A stretch of 64,000 bases of DNA from contig MKTA01000015.1 in the NCBI GenBank assembly GCA_001897515.1, positions 1 through 64,000 on the forward strand, given 5' to 3'. Positions 1,058 through 26,043 of this stretch are shown piece by piece. Below the pieces are notes generated by a model that was not told the DNA's origin, did not search any database, and worked only from the letters and a program-made list of their open reading frames with translations. The stretch's first letter is position 1; the number at the start of each line of letters is the position of its first letter. The DNA comes from Bacteroidetes bacterium 41-46. GTDB lineage: Bacteria > Bacteroidota > Bacteroidia > Bacteroidales > UBA932. Position numbers and translations under genes: made by a program.

Positions 1058-1693
1058 TCATAAGTCAAAGTCATCTGTCGGGTTTTTGATCTTCTGGAGG
1101 CCGGTCATACTTACCCATGTGTATATCTCAGTTGTCTTGCTGCTTTTATGTCCTAACAACTCCTGAATGTATCTCAAACTTACTCCTGCCTCTAATAGAT
1201 GTGTGGCATAACTGTGTCGCAGACAATGTAGTGTAAAGCTATGATTTTTAATAATTTTTCCCAAATATTTGTGAAAGATATTTTCTATGCTTGTTTCGCT
1301 GTATTGCTCTCCTGGTGATTGTCCCTCTATCAGATATTTTTTCGGTCGGTACATTTTGTAATATCTTATAATCATATCCATAAGTTTATCACTTAATGGT
1401 AGCACCCTGTCCTTCTGCACTTTTCCATTTATGACAGTCAATGTCTTACGCTTGGAATCCAAATCCACGAGTTTTAGATTCAGGATTTCACTTCTGCGCA
1501 AACCGCAGGCATAAACAAGGGTGAGTGCCGTTTTGTGTTTGAAGTTGGGAATTGACACAAGCATTTGCTCTACGACTTGCTTTGAGATGACCTTCGGGAG
1601 CGGGCGGTATTTTCTGGGTCTCTCTATCTCTTCAATTGAGAGTTGCCTTTTCTCAATCTTCTGATAATAGAGTTTGATGGCAGGATTACCTCC
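1058..1693 (-). pseudogene. 5'-truncated tyrosine recombinase (XerC/D-like)
   Basis: The catalytic domain of a tyrosine recombinase is intact: Arg in 'ACGLRRSEILNL', 'LHCLRHSYATHLL' (H-x-x-R), 'LLGHKSSKTTEIYTWVS' (His and the nucleophile Tyr), and a C-terminus ending near 'KIKNPTDDFDL'. An ATG at 1564 gives 168 residues, but recognisable family sequence continues upstream in frame ('NPAIKLYYQKIEKRQL...PLPKVISKQVVEQM') to about 1685, where the frame soon meets a stop at 1694-1696. The core-binding N-terminal domain (about 80-100 residues) is missing. The insertion typical of IntI integron integrases between the patch III and box II regions is not evident. The remnant lies on the 3' side of tRNA-Met and points toward the cassette. 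Confidence 0.8.
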
Positions 1694-1742
1694 CTATGGT
1701 CGGTGATCCTGCGATGGTCGGCAAAACAGCCCAAGAGTGGAG

Positions 1743-1784
1743 AGCCCCTGTATGGCATTGCCATACAGGGGGCTTTGTTTTTTC
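1743..1784 (+). terminator. Rho-independent terminator, plus strand
   Basis: A perfect 13-bp stem (1745-1757 with 1759-1771, one central base) is followed on the plus strand by GGCTTTGTTTTTTC. This is a strong terminator shape for plus-strand transcription, although no plus-strand gene is seen to its left. It faces the tRNA terminator at 1817-1857. Confidence 0.6.
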
Positions 1785-1831
1785 GCTCCGGCAAGAGCTA
1801 GCTCTTGGCCGGGTGGAAAAAACAAAGCCCC
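1769..1831. repeat. 63-bp near-perfect inverted repeat between two terminators
   Basis: Outer arms 1769-1784 (GGG, GCTTTG, T-run, C) and 1816-1831 are reverse complements. Inner sequence adds CCGGCAAGAGCTA / TAGCTCTTGGCCGG with a single-base bulge. The centre therefore can extrude as a cruciform, and it shares its T-tracts with the terminators on each side. Confidence 0.65.
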
Positions 1832-1857
1832 GCTTTTGCTTTTGCAAAAGCGGGGCT
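1817..1857 (-). terminator. Rho-independent terminator of tRNA-Met
   Basis: On the minus strand a 14-bp perfect stem (1857-1844 with 1839-1826, loop AAAA) starts six bases after the tRNA 3' end and is followed by a T-rich tail (TTTGTTTTTTC). This is a classical intrinsic terminator for the tRNA transcript. Confidence 0.8.
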
Positions 1858-1863
1858 CTCTTG

Positions 1864-1937
1864 TAGCGCGACCCAGGATTGAACTGGGGACCTCATGATT
1901 ATGAATCATGCGCTCTAACCATCTGAGCTATCGCGCC
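1864..1937 (-). tRNA. tRNA-Met (CAT)
   Basis: The minus strand folds as a complete 74-nt cloverleaf. The acceptor stem GGCGCGA pairs with TCGCGCT (G1-T72 wobble), the D-arm is GCTC...GAGC, the anticodon stem is CATGA/TCATG around the loop TTCATAA (anticodon CAT), and the T-arm is CCCAG TTCAATC CTGGG. The discriminator is A and no CCA is encoded. The anticodon stem lacks the three G-C pairs of initiator tRNA. Elongator Met is most likely; an Ile tRNA with lysidine at the CAT anticodon is the alternative. Confidence 0.9.
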
Positions 1938-1950
1938 GGGTTTGGGAGGG

Positions 1951-1980
1951 CAAAAGTAATACTTTTTTGTGATGTGACAA
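1951..1980 (-). promoter_or_regulatory. Promoter of tRNA-Met
   Basis: A Bacteroidota-type -7 box TACTTTTG lies at 1958..1951, with a TTG (-33) at 1980..1978 separated by 19 nt. It sits 13 nt before the mature tRNA. The same TACTTTTG box precedes the tRNA-Gly gene. Confidence 0.6.
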
Positions 1981-2000
1981 ATTTCCTGTTGTGAATTGTC

Positions 2001-2008
2001 TATTTTTG
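2001..2008 (+). promoter_or_regulatory. -7 box TATTTTTG
   Basis: Matches TAnnTTTG, 23 nt before the ATG at 2032. Its position excludes the earlier TTG start at 1996, because that codon would lie upstream of the transcript start. No clear TTG -33 element is seen at the usual spacing. Confidence 0.5.
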
Positions 2009-2031
2009 TTAATAGTAAAAAGGATATTTTT

Positions 2032-2697
2032 ATGTTTTTTAAGGGATTATTTAGCATTGTAATGGTATGTTGCACTTTATGGTGCGGAAGTGCTGGGGAG
2101 TTACAGGGCAGGGATGTTGTTTTGAATATGGATATGAGGAGCAGGGTTGAGAGTGTGGTCAAAAGGCAGTTGGAGTTGTATCCGCAGTCGAGGCTTATTG
2201 ATTTGTATAAGAACTTCTTTCAGGACAAGTTTGGTCCGGGGCATATGGTGGCCGATACCGCCTCTGCGGGGGCATATATCAGGAGAGAGCTTGCGCTTAT
2301 GAGGAGTGAGAGCGGCGGTAAGGTTGTTGGGCTTACACAGAGCGAGGTGGCGGAGATTATTGGGTGGGAGGGCCGGTTTGTGAGGGTAGATCTTGCAGTG
2401 ATTGAGATGGGGATTGTGAGTTATAAGCGGTTCTCAGAAGCCTTTTTTGAGAGTTCGTCATCGCATATATTGCCCGACATAGAAAAATGGAAGAGAGAAT
2501 GGAGTGAGATTGAAAAGATTATCAGAGAGACAGCCCCTCAGCTCAGAGGTTTTGATGAAGACTCTGACTTTATTGGAGATCTACTGGGAAGAGGAGAATA
2601 TGTTGTTCACCACAGCAGTGAGTACACTGCTGCATACAGGCCGCACTACAGATTAATACGAAGAGATATTTGGGAGAGGCTTATTTCCGAACCATAA
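2032..2697 (+). CDS. Secreted conserved protein of unknown function
   Basis: A 221-residue protein with a hydrophobic N-terminal segment (MFFKGLFSIVMVCCTLWCGSAG) that looks like a signal peptide, then a soluble, charged domain containing 'DLYKNFFQDKFGPGHMVAD' and 'LLGRGEYVVHHSSEY'. Proteins with this look occur in Bacteroidales genomes, but I know of no assigned function. Start 2032 is preferred because it gives a clean signal peptide, follows an AAAAAGGA ribosome-binding region, and lies downstream of the -7 box at 2001. Its 3' end overlaps the converging ispF by 17 bp. Probably periplasmic; cysteines near the signal peptide end could also allow lipidation, though no good lipobox is seen. 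Confidence 0.7.
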   Translation: MFFKGLFSIVMVCCTLWCGSAGELQGRDVVLNMDMRSRVESVVKRQLELYPQSRLIDLYKNFFQDKFGPGHMVADTASAGAYIRRELALMRSESGGKVVGLTQSEVAEIIGWEGRFVRVDLAVIEMGIVSYKRFSEAFFESSSSHILPDIEKWKREWSEIEKIIRETAPQLRGFDEDSDFIGDLLGRGEYVVHHSSEYTAAYRPHYRLIRRDIWERLISEP

Positions 2698-15155: not shown

Positions 15156-15163
15156 CGTTGATT

Positions 15164-16204
15164 ATGGCAAAGGTACTGTCTGCAGACGAATTTATAAAAA
15201 GGGCGGAGAGCACTCCGCTACTGGATGTGAGATCCCCCGGAGAGTATGCCCATGCGCATATTCCGGGGGCTCTCTCTTTACCCCTGTTTAGTGATGATGA
15301 GAGGGCTAAGGTTGGCACTCTGTATAAAAATCAGGGGAAGGTTGCATCTGTACAGAAGGGGCTGGAATTTGTTGGGCCTAAATTGAAGGGATTTACAAAG
15401 TTTGCTCTCAAACTGGGCTCTGAAGAGTTGCTTATGCACTGCTGGAGAGGGGGCATGCGATCCTCTTCAATGGCATGGCTGATGGAGAGCGTCGGTCTTA
15501 GAGTACTTCTTCTTGATGGTGGCTATAAAGCCTACAGAAAAATGGTTCTTGAGAGCTTTGACTCACCAATGAAGATCATTCTGCTGGGTGGATATACCGG
15601 CTCTGGCAAGACTGAGTTGTTGCTTCAGCTGAATGAGGCAGGCGAACAAATAGTGGACCTTGAGGGGTTGGCAAATCATAAAGGCTCTGCGTTTGGGGCT
15701 CTGGGACAGCCGGATCAACCATCAACAGAACAGTTTGAAAATTTACTTTTTAGAGAGATCTCAAGGCTGGATTTGAGTAGAAGGGTTTGGGTTGAGGACG
15801 AGAGCAGAAATGTGGGCAAAGTTTTTCTGCCACAACCCCTCTGGGAGAGGATGAGGAACTCTCCGCTTATCAGAATTGACACCCCGTATGAGATTAGACT
15901 TGAGAGGCTAATGAGGGATTACGCCTGTTTTGACACAGAGGGGCTCACCGCCTCTATCAAGAAAATTGAGAAGAGACTTGGATTTGATAAATGCAAAAAG
16001 GCGCTTGACGCATGCCTGTCAGACGACAGGGAACTTGCTGCCAGAATATGCCTGGACTATTATGATGCTGCTTATGGCAGCCAACTGGATAATCGGTTTG
16101 GGAGTAGGGAGAGTCTTCCCTCAGTTAAGATGAATTCACTTGACGGCAAAGAGACTGTAAGTGAGCTTATCTCTGTTGCAGACAGCATCAGTTTCAAAGA
16201 ATAA
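15164..16204 (+). CDS. mnmH: tRNA 2-selenouridine synthase
   Basis: MnmH (YbbB/SelU) replaces sulfur in wobble 2-thiouridine of tRNAs with selenium from selenophosphate, through a geranylated intermediate. The N-terminal rhodanese domain carries the catalytic Cys93 in 'LMHCWRGGMRSSSMAWL', and the C-terminal P-loop domain carries 'GGYTGSGKTELL'. 'PSTEQFENLLF' and 'VEDESRNVGKV' are also family-typical. Length 346 is normal. It is the first gene of the selenium cluster mnmH-yedF-selD, with gaps of 12 nt and a 4-nt overlap. selD supplies the selenophosphate. Confidence 0.95.
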   Translation: MAKVLSADEFIKRAESTPLLDVRSPGEYAHAHIPGALSLPLFSDDERAKVGTLYKNQGKVASVQKGLEFVGPKLKGFTKFALKLGSEELLMHCWRGGMRSSSMAWLMESVGLRVLLLDGGYKAYRKMVLESFDSPMKIILLGGYTGSGKTELLLQLNEAGEQIVDLEGLANHKGSAFGALGQPDQPSTEQFENLLFREISRLDLSRRVWVEDESRNVGKVFLPQPLWERMRNSPLIRIDTPYEIRLERLMRDYACFDTEGLTASIKKIEKRLGFDKCKKALDACLSDDRELAARICLDYYDAAYGSQLDNRFGSRESLPSVKMNSLDGKETVSELISVADSISFKE

Positions 16205-16216
16205 AATTTTAAAAAT

Positions 16217-16573
16217 ATGAGTACAAGAGATGGCAACGCAAAGGTTGCTGTTATTATTGACAGATTTGGAATGGGAGAGGCTGACAGGGAGCTGTCTCAC
16301 ACACTTTTAAAGAATTATCTTAATCTATTAATTTCCGAAATGAGGGTACCTGCATACATCTGTATGTACGGAGAGGGGGTAAAGTGTGCCTGCAGGGAGT
16401 CGGGATTTTCAGAGGAGTTAAAAAAACTTGAAAACATGGGTGCCAAAGTTGTAATTTGCAAAACATGCCTCTCTCACTATAAATTGATGGATGAGGTTGC
16501 TGCTGGTGTAGTCGGCACAATGATTGATATAATTGACATTCAGCATAACAGCACAAAAATCATTAAGTTATGA
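16217..16573 (+). CDS. YedF-like (DsrE-fold) selenium metabolism protein
   Basis: A 118-residue DsrE/F-like protein corresponding to the C-terminal half of YedF, the sulfurtransferase-like protein associated with selenium metabolism. Seen are '[29 protein letters not shown]', '[17 protein letters not shown]', and '[16 protein letters not shown]', the last with the conserved CxxC-like pair near the position of the DsrE active Cys. The N-terminal TusA-like domain of full YedF is absent. The ATGA overlap with selD and the location between mnmH and selD make a selenium delivery role likely, but the biochemical function of YedF is not established. Confidence 0.88.
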
Positions 16574-17610
16574 AAGAGGAGATAACGAGGTTAACCCAAT
16601 TCAGTCCGGGGGCAGGGTGCGGATGTAAAATTGCTCCAAAGGATCTTGAGGAGATTCTCAGAGGGAGCGTATCCGGAATGAACTTTCCAAATCTTCTTGT
16701 TGGAAATGAAAGTAAAGATGACGCTGCAGTATATGATATTGGAGGAGGAAGGGCCCTGGTTAGCACAACGGATTTCTTTACTCCTATAGTTGACAACCCC
16801 AGGGACTTTGGGCGTATATCTGCTACTAATGCCATATCTGATATTTATGCTATGGGTGGTGAGCCCCTTATGGCTATAGCCATACTTGGCTGGCCGCTTG
16901 ACAGGCTCCCCGGTTCTGTTGCATCTGAGGTTGTATCGGGCGCAAGAGAGGTCTGTGATAAAGCTGGCATTCCCCTGGCAGGGGGCCATAGCATTAACAT
17001 ATCAGATCCAATATTTGGATTGGCTGTAACTGGTATTGCAGATACTGATAAGATAAAAAAGAACAGTGGAGCCAAAGCTGGATCACTCCTGTTCCTGACT
17101 AAACCGATAGGCATCGGGCTTGTTACAACTGCAGAAAAATTTGGACTGGCAAAAGAGGAGGATAAGGCAGAGGCACTAAGGCTTATGACAACTCTTAATT
17201 CTCCCGGTGTGGCAATATCAAACATCAAGGAGGTGACTGCAATGACAGATGTAACGGGTTTTGGATTGATGGGACATACCATTGAGATGGCAGAGGGGAG
17301 CAATCTGACAGCGGAGATTGAGTATGATTCAGTCCCAAGAATTGAGGGAGCCCCTTTTTATATAGAGAAGGAGTGCATCCCGGGAGGCACTTTTAGGAAT
17401 TTTGCCAGCTATGGAGATAAAATAGCTAATATGACAGAGGTGCAGAAGATGTTATTGTGTGATCCTCAGACAAGCGGAGGACTTCTGATTGCTATACTTC
17501 CGGAAGGGATTGAGAAGTTAAAGGAGCTGGCCGCAAAGGAGGGATTCTCACTAAGCAGAATCGGGCGGCTTAAAGAGCGAAGCTCTGAGGCCTATGTTGA
17601 GATTATATAG
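16570..17610 (+). CDS. selD: Selenide, water dikinase (selenophosphate synthase)
   Basis: SelD makes selenophosphate from selenide and ATP, releasing AMP and phosphate. The N-terminal active-site loop reads '[11 protein letters not shown]' with Cys17 and Lys20; many SelDs have selenocysteine at position 17, so this is a Cys form. Further family motifs are 'KDDAAVYDI', '[33 protein letters not shown]', 'LAGGHSI', and '[17 protein letters not shown]'. Length 346 is standard. Within the window the only consumer of selenophosphate is mnmH, so the evident purpose of the cluster is selenouridine in tRNA; selA and selB are not seen here. Confidence 0.96.
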
Positions 17611-20874: not shown

Positions 20875-21960
20875 CTATTCTAAAACGGATACACAAGTAT
20901 TTGCATTTCCAATATCAATTCCCACAAAAGCTACTCCGCCCTTGTCTGTGATATAGAATCCATCCTCACTTATCTTTGACTCTTCGTAATTTGAGTTCAG
21001 CTTTGAGTAGAGGGAGTATCCAATAGATGCCATCCTCTCCGGATTCTCAGGAACAATAACATTGCAGGCATCACCAAACTCCTCTCTGAATAGTGTTATC
21101 AACTCCTCATTATATGCACCACCTCCGGCAAGATAAACAGATGTAGCGTTTTCAACGTCATTGTCACTGATAAACTTTCTTAGAGCAGGCATTATTATGT
21201 TCTTAAAGTATATCTCAATTGCTGTCCTCTTCTCTTTTGTCAGGTCCTTATGTTTTCTTTCTGTATAAGTAAAACCTTTAACAAAAATCTGATCCAGCTG
21301 GTGCTCATTCTTTATACCTATGTTTGTGTTCTTTACAAGCTCCTGGCCAAAGATATCTACTGCATAACTTAAACCATGTGTGCTGAATATGGTTCTGTTA
21401 ACCAATCCCTGAGGTGTGCTGAGAGCCCCTTCACATGTACCGTAACCAAGGCTTATGACAATGTAGTTTCCGTCAACCGGTTGCGCACCCTTTCGTATAG
21501 CATAGTCACATCCCAAAACTTCCGGGATCACGTTTACATTGGCAATAGGTATCAGCTTCTGCTCTGTTGTAACATCTCCTTTATCAGAGGCTACGAAGTA
21601 TGTAATCATGTTCTCTGTTTGCAGGTACTCCTTTGCAAGGTCTCTGTTCAACTGAAAGGTGGCGTAGGGAAAGCCTGCAGTAATGCAAAGTTTTGGCATT
21701 TTTGCAGTTTTAGCAATAGTTGTGCACAAATCTGAAGCCAAGAGAAGGGCAGATTGTGCAATCAACTTGTAGTCTGTCTCTGATGGAGATGCATTGATAT
21801 ATTTGTTAGGCGACACACCCTCGTTGAGGGCCTGTATGCCTATCATATAATCCATGCCTTCGAATTTAATTTTTGAGAAACCCAGAATGGGGTCGTTACT
21901 TGTGTAGTACTCTCTAATTGTAGCCTCATACACACTTGGGAAAGTCAAAGTTTTTACCAT
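20875..21960 (-). CDS. Actin-like ATPase (ParM/Alp family), apparently circularly permuted
   Basis: This 361-residue protein shows actin-superfamily motifs in an unusual order. The phosphate-1 signature, 'FVGIDIGNANTC' (Asp349), lies at residues 345-356, four to five residues from the C-terminus, whereas ParM, Alp, MreB and Hsp70 proteins start with it. The N-terminus begins with 'LTFPSV' (5-10) and 'IKFEGMDYMIGIQAL' (31-45), which in ParM/Alp proteins directly follow phosphate-1. A phosphate-2-like 'VISLGYGTCEG' (168-178) has Ser170 where Asp is usual; an adenosine motif 'YLAGGGAYN' is at 276-284. An in-frame TGA 21 nt before the ATG rules out a hidden N-terminal copy. No partner genes such as parR are adjacent. 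Cellular role unknown. Confidence 0.8.
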   Translation of the reverse strand: MVKTLTFPSVYEATIREYYTSNDPILGFSKIKFEGMDYMIGIQALNEGVSPNKYINASPSETDYKLIAQSALLLASDLCTTIAKTAKMPKLCITAGFPYATFQLNRDLAKEYLQTENMITYFVASDKGDVTTEQKLIPIANVNVIPEVLGCDYAIRKGAQPVDGNYIVISLGYGTCEGALSTPQGLVNRTIFSTHGLSYAVDIFGQELVKNTNIGIKNEHQLDQIFVKGFTYTERKHKDLTKEKRTAIEIYFKNIIMPALRKFISDNDVENATSVYLAGGGAYNEELITLFREEFGDACNVIVPENPERMASIGYSLYSKLNSNYEESKISEDGFYITDKGGVAFVGIDIGNANTCVSVLE

Positions 21961-22049: not shown

Positions 22050-22057
22050 TAGATTTG
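22050..22057 (+). promoter_or_regulatory. -7 box TAGATTTG of aroB, 5 nt before ATG
   Basis: Matches TAnnTTTG, with TATCA between it and the ATG at 22063. It supports the start at 22063 over the longer frame from 21985 and again implies a leaderless transcript for the aroB-aroDA-aroC operon. Confidence 0.5.
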
Positions 22058-22062
22058 TATCA

Positions 22063-23085
22063 ATGGAAATGAAGGAGACGGTACTGTTTTATTGCAAAAA
22101 GATTAAAGATATCCCGGATTTCATACCCGCGGAGAGAAGGATCATTGTACTTGCTGATTTTAAGGTTGAAAGTGCTTTAAAGCGTGTTCTGCACTTTCCG
22201 TTCATTACCATTGAATCTTCTGAAGAGAATAAATGTTTCCGTACTCTTGAAGAGCTCACTTTAAAACTGATGGATTTGGGAGCTGACCGAGGCACGCTGC
22301 TTTTGGTTGCCGGAGGGGGGATAGTTGGAGATATTGGAGGATTTCTTGCATCCACCTACTACAGAGGTATAGATTATTGTCTCATCCCCACAACCCTCCT
22401 TTCCCAGGTTGACGCCTCTATTGGAGGAAAAACAGCAATTAATGTCAAGGGGTTCAAAAACATACTTGGTCTTTTTAACCCCTCAAATTTTACAATTTTT
22501 TGCAGCGAATTTCTGGACACTCTCCCCAGAAAGCAGATTGACGAGGGGCTGGCAGAGATGCTTAAGACCTTCCTTCTGGCGGATAAGGTTGCATACCTTG
22601 ATGCTGTTGATGTAATAATTGGGGGAAGTCCTCATCTTAAAAAGATCTCCACATTTTCTGAGCTATTCCCATTTATCAAAAGAGCCTCTGAGATAAAGAG
22701 CGATATAGTTAAGCGGGACCCTTATGAGAAAGGAGAGCGTAAACTCTTGAACTTGGGTCATACATTTGGCCATGCTATAGAAAAACTGTGCGGACTTTCA
22801 CACGGAGAGGCAGTTAGTATTGGAATTGCCCTCTCAGCAAACCTCTCTGTTAAATTAAGACTGCTTTCAAAATCAGATGGCAACAAAATCATAAGGGATC
22901 TTAAGTCATTGGGACTCCCTGCCGAATCTCCGGTTCACCCATCGGAATTATTTGAAACAATGACAAAAGATAAAAAGAAGGATGGTGAGGCCATCCAGTT
23001 CATCCTCCTTGAGGGAATTGGTAAGGCTATAATATACCCTCTCACTATAGAGAGGCTAAAAGGATTGTTAAATGATTTGTCTTAG
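22063..23085 (+). CDS. aroB: 3-dehydroquinate synthase
   Basis: AroB converts DAHP into 3-dehydroquinate, second step of the shikimate pathway, with NAD+ and a divalent metal. Motifs present: 'LLLVAGGGIVGDIGGFLASTYYRGIDYCLIPTTLLSQVDASIGGKTAIN' region in two parts (NAD-binding GGG and substrate-binding QVDASIGGKT), 'DEGLAEMLKTFLL' (metal-binding Glu), 'LLNLGHTFGHAIEKL' and 'LSHGEAVSIGI' (metal-binding His residues). Length 340 from the ATG at 22063. It overlaps the next gene by 14 nt in another frame, so the operon is tightly coupled. Confidence 0.95.
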   Translation: MEMKETVLFYCKKIKDIPDFIPAERRIIVLADFKVESALKRVLHFPFITIESSEENKCFRTLEELTLKLMDLGADRGTLLLVAGGGIVGDIGGFLASTYYRGIDYCLIPTTLLSQVDASIGGKTAINVKGFKNILGLFNPSNFTIFCSEFLDTLPRKQIDEGLAEMLKTFLLADKVAYLDAVDVIIGGSPHLKKISTFSELFPFIKRASEIKSDIVKRDPYEKGERKLLNLGHTFGHAIEKLCGLSHGEAVSIGIALSANLSVKLRLLSKSDGNKIIRDLKSLGLPAESPVHPSELFETMTKDKKKDGEAIQFILLEGIGKAIIYPLTIERLKGLLNDLS

Positions 23086-25090
23086 TCTTCAAAAACTTGA
23101 CTACAAAAGTCTTGTTAAGGCCGTTTCAAAATCTGAGATGGCCGAGATTCGCCTTGACCTGACTGAACTGACAGAGGTGGAGATTGGCAAGGTATTCTCT
23201 AAGGAGAGGAATTTGATTGCAACATGCAGGCTTGAAAAGCTTCCAAAGGAGGTGTGCATTGAAAAACTGTCTGCTGCAATAAAAGGAAACGGACCGGCTA
23301 AAAAGAGTAAAGTTACAAAGTACCTTGACATAGAATACGATGCTCCCCAGGACTATCGGGAGGCTATGGTTACCTTGGCAAGGGAGAATGGTTTTAAAAT
23401 TATACATTCATATCACAATTTCTCAAACACAGACCCTTTTGAAAGGCTTCTTGAGATAACCGGAAAGTGTTTTGAATATGGTGCCGACATAGTAAAAATT
23501 GCTACTACTGCCATAATTACGGAGGAGGGTGTGAGAACTCTGAGGCTTTACCGCCATTTTGAAAAGAGTCGCCTGTTGGCTTTTTCTATGGGCGATGCCG
23601 GGAAGTTCACAAGGCTACTCTCTCTTAATATTGGAGCCCCGTTTACCTTTGCAGCACCTAAAGAGGAGCTTGCCACAGCTCCCGGACAGCCCCTTGAGGT
23701 GGAGGCAAAGGCGGCGGTAAATCCAAAAAGCTATCCACATAAAATAAAATTCAACTCTCTGCAGACATCAATTAAGGCTCCCTCTTCAAAGAGCCATGCG
23801 CAGAGGGCTATTATTGCTGCAAGCCTTGCAAAGGGCGTATCCAACATATATGGATATACCCCATGTGACGACACAGATGCCGCTCTGGAGATGGCAAAAA
23901 AGTTTGGTGTTCAGGTGAAGTTCAAGAGTAAAAGAGGGCATCTCTTCATTAAAAGCCCCGGGTCCAACGCCATAAGTCTTGAGTTTGCAAAATCCAAATC
24001 TCCACTGACTTTTAATGCCGGAGAGTCGGGATTGCTTTCAAAACTTATGATTCCAATCTCAGGGCACCTATCGGCAAACAGAAAAATTACAATAACCGGA
24101 AAAGGAACCCTGCTGAAAAGAGAGTATTTGGGGGTAGAGGAGCTTCTGGAAAAGGTTGGAGTCTCTTTTGAAACTTCAAATGGTTTTCTTCCGGGTAAAT
24201 TAAAAGGCATGCTTAGGGGGGGGACGATACAACTCTCCGGTAAAGGTGGCTCTCAACTGGTTTCAGGATTGCTGATGGCTCTTCCACTATGTGTAGATTC
24301 AAGCAGACTTGAACTGGAAAGCCCCACCAGTAAACCATATATAGACTTAACTCTAAAGACGCTAAAAGATTTCAACCTAAAGATTACAAATAACAATTAC
24401 TCACAGTTTATTATTCCGGGCAGGCAGAGGTACAGAAAGAAAATTTTTTACCAGCTTCAGGGAGACTGGAGTTCTGCAGCCCTTCTTCTCACCGGTGGAG
24501 CCATTTCCCGTGATGTTACTGTAAAAAACTTAATTATCAACTCATCTCAGGCAGATGAGAGAATTCTTGAGGTATTCAAGGCTGCCGGTGTTGAATTTGA
24601 TGTTGTTGAAGGTCCAAAGTATCTTATTATGTGCGGAGATGTACCATGTGCATTCAGGGATAATCCGGACGACGAAGATTGTTGCTCAGGAAGGGTGGAT
24701 GTGAAGGGTTCAAAATTGCCTTATAAACCCTTTGAATTTGACGCAACGGATTCTCCGGACCTGTTCCCTCCCCTTGTTGTGCTGGCCCTTAATTGCGACG
24801 GAGAGAGCCGAATAAAAGGGGTAAGCAGACTCTACAACAAAGAGAGCAACAGAGCGGAGACTCTATTCTCTGAATTTGTAAAGCTTGGGGCTGACATTGA
24901 TATTCAGGGAGACTACATGATGGTTAGAGGTGGTAAACTCCATGGTGGCTATTGCAATACACACGGAGACCACCGGATTGCGATGGCTCTCTGTATTGCC
25001 GCTTTAAACATTGATGAGCCACTATATCTGGACAATATGGCGTGCATATCTAAGTCCTTTCCTGGTTTTATAAGCAATTTTGTAAAATGA
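23072..25090 (+). CDS. Fused type I 3-dehydroquinate dehydratase / EPSP synthase
   Basis: One 672-residue chain contains two shikimate enzymes. Residues 1 to about 210 are a type I dehydroquinate dehydratase (AroD): 'EIRLDL' (25-30), His115 in 'HSYHNF', the Schiff-base Lys142 in 'DIVKIAT', 'FSMGDAG' and 'APGQ' (203-206). Residues about 225-672 are EPSP synthase (AroA): 'KAPSSKSHAQRA' with Lys240, 'NAGESGLLSKLM', 'GSQLVSGLLMALPL', 'GDWSSAALLLTGGAI', 'DATDSPDLFPPL' and 'HGDHRIAMALCIAAL'. The reading frame is continuous with no stop. The linker holds 'LEVEAKAAVNPKSYPHK'. Most Bacteroidales use a separate type II dehydratase (AroQ), so both the fusion and the type I enzyme are unusual. It overlaps aroC by 4 nt. 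Confidence 0.93.
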   Translation: MICLSLQKLDYKSLVKAVSKSEMAEIRLDLTELTEVEIGKVFSKERNLIATCRLEKLPKEVCIEKLSAAIKGNGPAKKSKVTKYLDIEYDAPQDYREAMVTLARENGFKIIHSYHNFSNTDPFERLLEITGKCFEYGADIVKIATTAIITEEGVRTLRLYRHFEKSRLLAFSMGDAGKFTRLLSLNIGAPFTFAAPKEELATAPGQPLEVEAKAAVNPKSYPHKIKFNSLQTSIKAPSSKSHAQRAIIAASLAKGVSNIYGYTPCDDTDAALEMAKKFGVQVKFKSKRGHLFIKSPGSNAISLEFAKSKSPLTFNAGESGLLSKLMIPISGHLSANRKITITGKGTLLKREYLGVEELLEKVGVSFETSNGFLPGKLKGMLRGGTIQLSGKGGSQLVSGLLMALPLCVDSSRLELESPTSKPYIDLTLKTLKDFNLKITNNNYSQFIIPGRQRYRKKIFYQLQGDWSSAALLLTGGAISRDVTVKNLIINSSQADERILEVFKAAGVEFDVVEGPKYLIMCGDVPCAFRDNPDDEDCCSGRVDVKGSKLPYKPFEFDATDSPDLFPPLVVLALNCDGESRIKGVSRLYNKESNRAETLFSEFVKLGADIDIQGDYMMVRGGKLHGGYCNTHGDHRIAMALCIAALNIDEPLYLDNMACISKSFPGFISNFVK

Positions 25091-26043
25091 ACATATTCGG
25101 CAGAAAATTAAGGCTCTCTATATTTGGAGAATCTCATGGAGCGGGATTGGGGATTATTGTTGATGGCGTACCCTCAGGGATGCCTTTGTCAACATCAGAC
25201 TTCACGGCTGACCTCTCCAGAAGAAGGCCCGGAGCTCCGGGAACAACTGCCAGAAGAGAGGGCGATGCCGTTACGATACTCAGCGGAGTATATAATGGCT
25301 TTTCAACAGGTGCTCCCATTGCCCTTCTTTTCTCAAACGACAACGCAAGACCCTCTGATTATGACAAATTTGCAGAACACCCCAGACCGGGTCACTCAGA
25401 TTATTCATCCAGGGAGAAGTTCGGAAATTTTGCCGATCTCAGAGGGGGAGGTCACCACTCCGGCAGGGTTACCATTGGTATAGTTGCAGCAGGGGTTATC
25501 GCTAAAAAGATGCTTGGACAAATAACGATTAGTGCTAAGATACTGGAGATTGGCGGAAAGAACCCATGGGATAGTGCTCTTGAAGAGGCCGGCAAAAGAG
25601 GCGACTCTCTTGGCGGAATTATTGAGTGCCGGGTAACTCAGGTGCCGGCTGGTTTAGGAGAACCGTTCTTTGACTCAGTAGAGTCTCAGATCTCACATCT
25701 GATATTCTCAATACCCGGGGTAAGAGGAGTAGAGTTTGGCGACGGCTTTGCCTCCGCCAGAATGTATGGTTCCCAACACAATGACCCTATCGCAGATTCA
25801 TCAGGAAGAACCTCAAAAAATGGTGCCGGAGGTGTAAACGGAGGAATTTCAAATGGGAATGACATTGTCTTCAGAGTTGCCGTAAAACCAACATCAAGTA
25901 TTGCTGCTCCTCAGGAGACTTACAATTTTAGCACAAAAAAAGTAGAGAGGCTGGTGGTATCGGGAAGGCATGATACATGTTTTGCACTCAGGTTGCCGGT
26001 TGTCATTGAGGCTGCAACTGCTATTGCACTGGCAAATTTTTAA
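25087..26043 (+). CDS. aroC: Chorismate synthase
   Basis: AroC eliminates phosphate from EPSP to form chorismate, using reduced FMN. Motifs: 'LRLSIFGESHGAGLGIIVDGVPSG' (split here as GESHG and DGVPSG signatures), 'RRRPG', 'PRPGHSDYSSREKFG', 'RGGGHHSGRVTIG' (variant of GGGRSSARET), 'NGGISNGNDI', and 'SGRHDTCFALRLPVVIEAATAIAL'. At 318 residues it is about 30-40 shorter than typical enzymes, with the deletion spread over the middle region. The ATGA overlap with aroDA indicates translational coupling. Its 3' end overlaps the converging acyltransferase gene by 23 bp. Confidence 0.95.
   Translation: MNIFGRKLRLSIFGESHGAGLGIIVDGVPSGMPLSTSDFTADLSRRRPGAPGTTARREGDAVTILSGVYNGFSTGAPIALLFSNDNARPSDYDKFAEHPRPGHSDYSSREKFGNFADLRGGGHHSGRVTIGIVAAGVIAKKMLGQITISAKILEIGGKNPWDSALEEAGKRGDSLGGIIECRVTQVPAGLGEPFFDSVESQISHLIFSIPGVRGVEFGDGFASARMYGSQHNDPIADSSGRTSKNGAGGVNGGISNGNDIVFRVAVKPTSSIAAPQETYNFSTKKVERLVVSGRHDTCFALRLPVVIEAATAIALANF

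Follow-up and report, generated by a model that had tools for sequence, protein, structure and literature searches.

The window, by which we mean the whole stretch of 64,000 nucleotides analysed here (contig MKTA01000015.1 of Bacteroidetes bacterium 41-46), encodes an actin-like protein of 361 residues that appears to be a natural circular permutation. Relative to a canonical protein its segments stand in rotated order, and the old ends are predicted to be rejoined by a linker. This reading is well supported by sequence comparisons and by a structural model, and we regard the permutation, taken by itself, as nearly certain. In canonical actin-like proteins the phosphate-1 hairpin is N-terminal. 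In the window protein the phosphate-1 loop, IDIGNANTC, occupies residues I348 to C356, near the C-terminus, and the N-terminal sequence, MVKTLTFPSVYEA, is the segment that in canonical proteins comes right after phosphate-1.

The open reading frame begins with an ATG, and an in-frame stop codon lies 21 nt upstream of it (the order is stop, NKPSSP, M). A phosphate-1 copy at the N-terminus is thus absent from the frame, and a misassigned start site hiding an upstream phosphate-1 was ruled out. The initial annotation had described exactly this arrangement, and the reading frame together with the upstream stop codon confirmed it. A second paralogue in the same genome was rejected, because the ALP_N and family profiles matched the window gene alone. 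Comparison with a relative of 91% identity (L017) gave a dN of 0.064 and a dS of 1.79, the latter being near saturation. The features of the gene are collected in Table 1.

Table 1. Positions in the window of the permuted gene and of the parts of its product
Feature	Position	Strand	Evidence
Gene for the permuted actin-like protein (361 aa)	20875..21960	-	Profile matches to ALP_N and phrog_691
Residues 343-360, predicted strand hairpin at the C-terminus, carrying the phosphate-1 loop G347-D349-G351-N352-T355	20881..20934	-	AF2 strands; invariance in 40/40; weak match to 7yyl_E
Residues 322-342, low-confidence linker between the former C-terminal helix (307-321) and the former first strand	20935..20997	-	pLDDT <50 at residues 328-340
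Adenosine-site GGG, residues 279-281	21118..21126	-	Invariant in 40/40
Phosphate-2 loop, residues 170-178, SLGYGTCEG, with Ser170 in place of the canonical Asp	21427..21453	-	Alignment to pCBH ParM and Dh-cParM1
Glu147, presumably at the position of the catalytic Glu148 of ParM	21520..21522	-	Invariant in 40/40
New N-terminus, residues 1-11: strand E2-8 and FPSV motif	21928..21960	-	AF2; alignment of the family profile to pCBH ParM, starting at chain residue 25

Rotation of the sequence provided the most direct evidence. In its native order the protein was matched by Pfam ALP_N over residues 3-150 (profile positions 17-148; 32.9 bits, above the cut-off of 26.3 bits) and by phrog_691, a phage 'partition protein' family, over residues 4-322 (profile positions 25-325; 83.1 bits). 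The first 16 positions of ALP_N and the first 24 of phrog_691, where phosphate-1 sits, remained unmatched. The initial annotation had predicted that the scores should rise when the C-terminal tail is moved to the N-terminus. The last 18 residues were therefore placed at the front, and shuffled tails in the same position served as controls (ten tails for ALP_N in total and one for phrog_691). The ALP_N score rose from 32.9 to 44.4 bits, with coverage now extending over profile positions 1-148, compared with 32.4 bits for a shuffled tail. For phrog_691 the score rose from 83.1 to 99.6 bits (coverage 6-325), versus 83.6 bits with the shuffled tail. With a fragment of 203 aa, the true tail scored 46.4 bits against ALP_N, and nine further shuffles scored 34.1-35.7 bits. 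Thus the prediction was borne out, and the profile start was matched after rotation alone. All three relatives tested behaved likewise in both libraries: rotation raised the ALP_N scores of L018, L013 and L009 from 38.9 to 50.6, from 47.4 to 59.1 and from 30.7 to 34.8 bits, and their phrog_691 scores from 64.5 to 77.7, from 80.5 to 95.2 and from 49.6 to 53.5 bits, respectively.

Comparisons with protein structures and with more distant relatives did not yield uniform results. A four-member profile in native order matched the ASKHA chain 7yyl_E in inverted order, positions 332-349 aligning with residues 2-19 and positions 262-311 with residues 193-240; this match is weak, the piece 332-349 scoring -2.1 bits. 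The rotated four-member profile matched the same chain collinearly, and rotation added only 0.3-2.2 bits against four PDB chains. Positions 315-339 of the 40-row family profile were placed on residues 5-52 of three Hsp70/DnaK chains, again as weak matches (E 0.18-0.67). A single-sequence phmmer search of the PDB with the protein returned one nonsense match and nothing else.

A canonical ParM-like gene with an N-terminal phosphate-1 was observed in the same taxonomic order as the window (L045 in genome G139, 1474-2397, minus strand). Its neighbours are presumably recombinase-like ORFs, and it probably lies on a mobile element. When the permuted family was compared with a profile of this distant canonical group (nine rows, two of which, L120 and L125, are shortened by stops), only residues 60-289 were aligned, no match to phosphate-1 was obtained, and rotation brought no gain (47.9 before and 47.8 after).

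The structure was predicted with AlphaFold2 on the alignment of 40 rows. The model shows an actin-like fold (pLDDT 86.2, pTM 0.88) with a C-terminal hairpin formed by strands 343-350 and 354-360 (block pLDDT 87 and 90), as the initial annotation had anticipated, and an earlier model from 15 rows contained the same hairpin. Judged by the model, the protein belongs to the actin fold class. The top matches in a Foldseek search of the PDB were the archaeal Ta0583 (2fsj), the ParM of the Clostridium botulinum plasmid pCBH (6izr, 6ixw) and Dh-cParM1, with TMq values of 0.58-0.67; the E values for Ta0583 and pCBH ParM are about 2e-15. As Foldseek alignments are sequential, they cannot reveal a moved hairpin. 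pCBH ParM and Ta0583 share the nucleotide-site loops with the permuted protein, but their phosphate-1 hairpin is N-terminal, whereas that of the permuted family is C-terminal. The matches also included CorM of Anabaena (9rmi, known to us by its PDB title), a ParM-like fold with a TMq of 0.57; a literature search on CorM returned nothing relevant.

Family-profile searches covered the phylum of the window, Bacteroidota, and detected the family in 15 of the 295 genomes sampled from the window's order and in 24 of 395 genomes of a phylum sample, the window's genome being included in both counts. Two more loci came from a set of genome contigs. Together with the window gene, 40 full-length relatives were available; this count omits duplicate fetches of a locus, a fragment at a contig edge in G628 (L042) and the gene of G030 that is broken (L015, L016). 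The carrier genomes searched number 37, including the one with the broken copy and excluding G628.

The permuted order is uniform throughout this family. All 40 proteins start at the [FILY]PS segment, and each contains the strict phosphate-1 pattern exactly once, at the C-terminus. The motif D-x-G-x-x-x-T/S/C was found in the first part of none of the 40 proteins; two of them have a bare D-L-G some 28 residues behind the start motif. The initial annotation had named a C-terminal motif that is a second, extra copy as an observation that would contradict the permutation; such a copy was looked for in all 40 sequences and was found in none. Residues G347, D349, G351, N352 and T355 of phosphate-1 are invariant in 40/40, as are E147, G172, G174, E177 and G279-281, so that phosphate-1 is as conserved as the other nucleotide-site residues. 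The spacing between the columns of G314 and G347 varies from 16 to 37 residues, and between 6 and 23 residues follow T355, except in L010. In this protein (1114-2502, minus strand) 130 mostly charged residues stand behind the C-terminal phosphate-1 hairpin, at a site that lies inside the chain in canonical actins.

The missing phosphate-1 match in the comparison with the L045 group would be compatible with a protein that is not permuted at all, namely a degenerate actin-like protein without its former N-terminal hairpin, whose C-terminus bears a phosphate-1-like motif that is either unrelated or a duplicate. We consider this extremely improbable, because rotation, unlike shuffling, restores the whole profile length, the C-terminal hairpin is predicted with confidence, and the C-terminal motif is invariant in a family that has no N-terminal copy. 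The rotation tests, the identical order in all homologues and the predicted fold with its C-terminal hairpin thus jointly support a circular permutation. All members of the family are cut at the same point, which argues for a single event, and the permutation was probably fixed once. An unpermuted sister near enough to root the permutation was not found in the Bacteroidota samples. A survey of the phylum sample with ALP_N gave 12 matches in 11 of the 395 genomes, all 12 starting at profile position 15-21. This survey missed 13 of the 24 carriers found with the family profile, among them the window's genome, although the window's own gene was found by another ALP_N search. The survey was therefore insensitive, and its absence of canonical matches is weak evidence.

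The second deviation from canonical actin-like proteins concerns the phosphate-2 loop. The initial annotation had noted that the phosphate-2 Asp is replaced by Ser170, and alignments to pCBH ParM, Dh-cParM1 and the canonical L045, all of which have an Asp at this position, verified the replacement. It is common to the whole family: among the 40 proteins, position 170 is Ser in 37, Gly in two, Asn in one, and Asp in none. Canonical ALP_N proteins combine a hairpin at the start of the chain with a phosphate-2 Asp, and the permuted family has neither (0/40). According to PMC5539076, the D170A mutant of ParM and the equivalent mutant of AlfA lost their dynamics but still formed static filaments, whereas the equivalent mutants of Alp7A and AlpC formed no filaments; loss of the Asp could therefore also mean that no polymer is formed. 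By analogy with these mutants, hydrolysis is likely to be slowed or absent in the permuted family. Binding of ATP and Mg should be retained.

Clustering of the genes surrounding the permuted loci identified bactofilin as the most recurrent neighbour. Bactofilins are beta-helical polymers that do not bind nucleotides; the bactofilin is a gene neighbour and proposed partner of the permuted protein, not a relative. In a six-frame profile search, a bactofilin was found at a distance of at most 1.3 kb from 20 of the 40 permuted genes, and in 20 of 20 cases on the same strand. Eighteen of these bactofilins lie downstream and two upstream; in 16 cases the distance is at most 0.42 kb. PF04519 scored above its cut-off in all 17 neighbours that were scanned, and the other three were identified by genome search. 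The 37 carrier genomes contain 55 bactofilin genes, of which 19 are located beside a permuted gene, against an expectation of about 0.07 within 2.5 kb, as calculated arithmetically from the genome sizes. The twentieth linked pair (L018) comes from a MAG that is not among the 37 carriers, and the genome-wide positions in these carriers revealed no further linked pair. Neither the bactofilin linkage nor the spread of the family across the phylum had been part of the initial annotation.

The arrangement of the linked genes varies in detail. At L075 the bactofilin gene overlaps the permuted gene by one base. At L077 a TPR gene lies between the permuted gene and the bactofilin gene, an M23 peptidase gene (Pfam) is located on the other side, and beyond it are genes that we take to be ATP-synthase-like; by clustering, L084 has the same gene order. 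Two genomes, G441 (L079, L080) and G489 (L028, L044), each contain two paralogous permuted genes, and each paralogue has its own divergent bactofilin. The sole broken copy seen is a permuted gene split by in-frame stops (L015/L016 on contig C131 of G030). This genome belongs to the three carriers of one family (G144, G239, G030) in which a bactofilin match was absent, as if the permuted gene and bactofilin were being lost together.

The window gene itself has no bactofilin neighbour, and the same is true for 19 other members. Its neighbours are presumably aroB-like and ComM-like genes. The window's genome encodes two bactofilins elsewhere. The second, divergent one (L186, on contig C1 of G000, 3265 bases) lies directly behind a reading frame that we take to encode an M23-like peptidase, and it may be the unlinked partner of the window's permuted protein.

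At least two bactofilins were present in 16 of the 37 carriers, compared with 2 of 34 non-carriers, in which the 40-row profile detected no family member (Fisher p 0.0003, kinship ignored). This comparison is confounded by taxonomy, because the hand-picked non-carriers all belong to the window's order and class and 21 of the 37 carriers belong to other classes. Within the window's order and class the figures are 5 of 16 carriers versus 2 of 34 non-carriers (p 0.027, kinship again ignored). On the tree of the actin-like proteins the linkage label needs six changes. On the bactofilin tree the linked bactofilins do not form one clade, and eight changes are needed; this tree has long branches and little resolution, with 30 of its 76 inner branches open.

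The genomic context also bears on a role in segregation. The name 'partition protein' of phrog_691 and the presence of ParM among the closest folds would fit a motor for plasmid or chromosome segregation of the ParM type that happens to be permuted. However, ParMRC segregation systems are borne by plasmids or phages, and pCBH ParM is both plasmid-borne and equipped with the phosphate-2 Asp, whereas tblastn searches at E 1e-3 matched the permuted family in none of 72,556 plasmid records and none of 50,697 phage records. A pattern search of viral contigs gave 25 matches, none of them to a relative. In addition, the recurrent neighbour is a bactofilin and the Asp needed for ParM dynamics is missing, and we therefore judge a segregation motor to be very unlikely. 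A mobile or plasmid gene likewise found no support in these searches. Four members reside on contigs of 3.5-5.3 Mb (G441, G594, G406, G257); the family is chromosomal and is present in more than one class of Bacteroidota.

We propose, with moderate confidence, that the family provides an ATP-binding, slowly hydrolysing or non-hydrolysing scaffold of permuted actin-like protein that works with bactofilin at the cell envelope. It would have originated by circular permutation of an actin-like protein of the ParM/Ta0583 type, in which a flexible linker (approximately residues 322-342) joined the old termini and new ends were opened in the turn that connects the second strand of subdomain IA with the third. 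The C-terminal phosphate-1 hairpin and the usual loops would rebuild the nucleotide site, so that ATP and Mg should still bind. The loss of the phosphate-2 Asp throughout the family would slow or abolish hydrolysis, as in the static ParM D170A filaments, and the resulting stable, non-dynamic polymer or switch might act with the bactofilin scaffold at the envelope.

The main rival to such a scaffold also retains the permutation. It holds that the protein is a non-polymerising ASKHA ATPase, similar to EutJ, an activase or Hsp70, whose task would be to load, remodel or regulate either bactofilin or an enzyme of the envelope. Profile matches to a CoA-type activase and to DnaK point in this direction, as do weak matches in NCBIfam to AnmK and EutJ, and it would agree with the loss of the phosphate-2 Asp in a family whose filament formation is putative. 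However, the top folds and profiles are ParM-type proteins, and the NCBIfam scores are far below the cut-off (at best 19.8 bits versus 435). We therefore regard the ATPase as unlikely, if by no means negligible, and prefer the actin-like scaffold. A more far-reaching form of the scaffold, which is tentative and in our view doubtful, would be a composite cytoskeleton: the new, surface-exposed ends and the missing Asp could have turned a dynamic motor of the ParM type into a strut that stays assembled permanently, forms jointly with a dedicated bactofilin and positions cell-wall enzymes independently of MreB.

MreB was found in all 71 genomes searched, of which 37 were carriers. It is likewise a chromosomal bacterial actin, and the window protein weakly matches its C-terminal part, below the cut-off. 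All 37 carriers contain MreB as a separate canonical gene, which rules out that the permuted actin replaces it; the permuted protein would operate alongside MreB and not in its place.

To our knowledge, the phosphate-1 hairpin is always first in the chain across the actin fold, from actin to Hsp70, and the cytoskeleton of Bacteroidota has been little studied. A natural family with the hairpin last indicates that the fold and its nucleotide site tolerate moved chain ends, and it could offer a ready-made system for studying the coupling between chain ends, ATP hydrolysis and filament dynamics. The recurrent pairing with bactofilin suggests a connection, open to testing, between an actin that binds nucleotides and a scaffold that does not. 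A literature search confined to PMC and judged by titles and abstract openings revealed no report of a circularly permuted actin-like protein, ParM or bacterial actin, and none of a bactofilin paired with ParM or an actin-like protein in Bacteroidota. The terms looked for are absent from the accessible part of PMC7203096.

Two further gene groups were observed in the window. At 15158-17610, three adjacent ORFs of the selenium-use type look like SelU, a DsrE/YedF-like protein and SelD. At 22050-26043, three ORFs follow in a row, which we take to be an aroB-like gene, an ORF of 672 aa in which type I dehydroquinase is fused to EPSP synthase, and an aroC-like gene.
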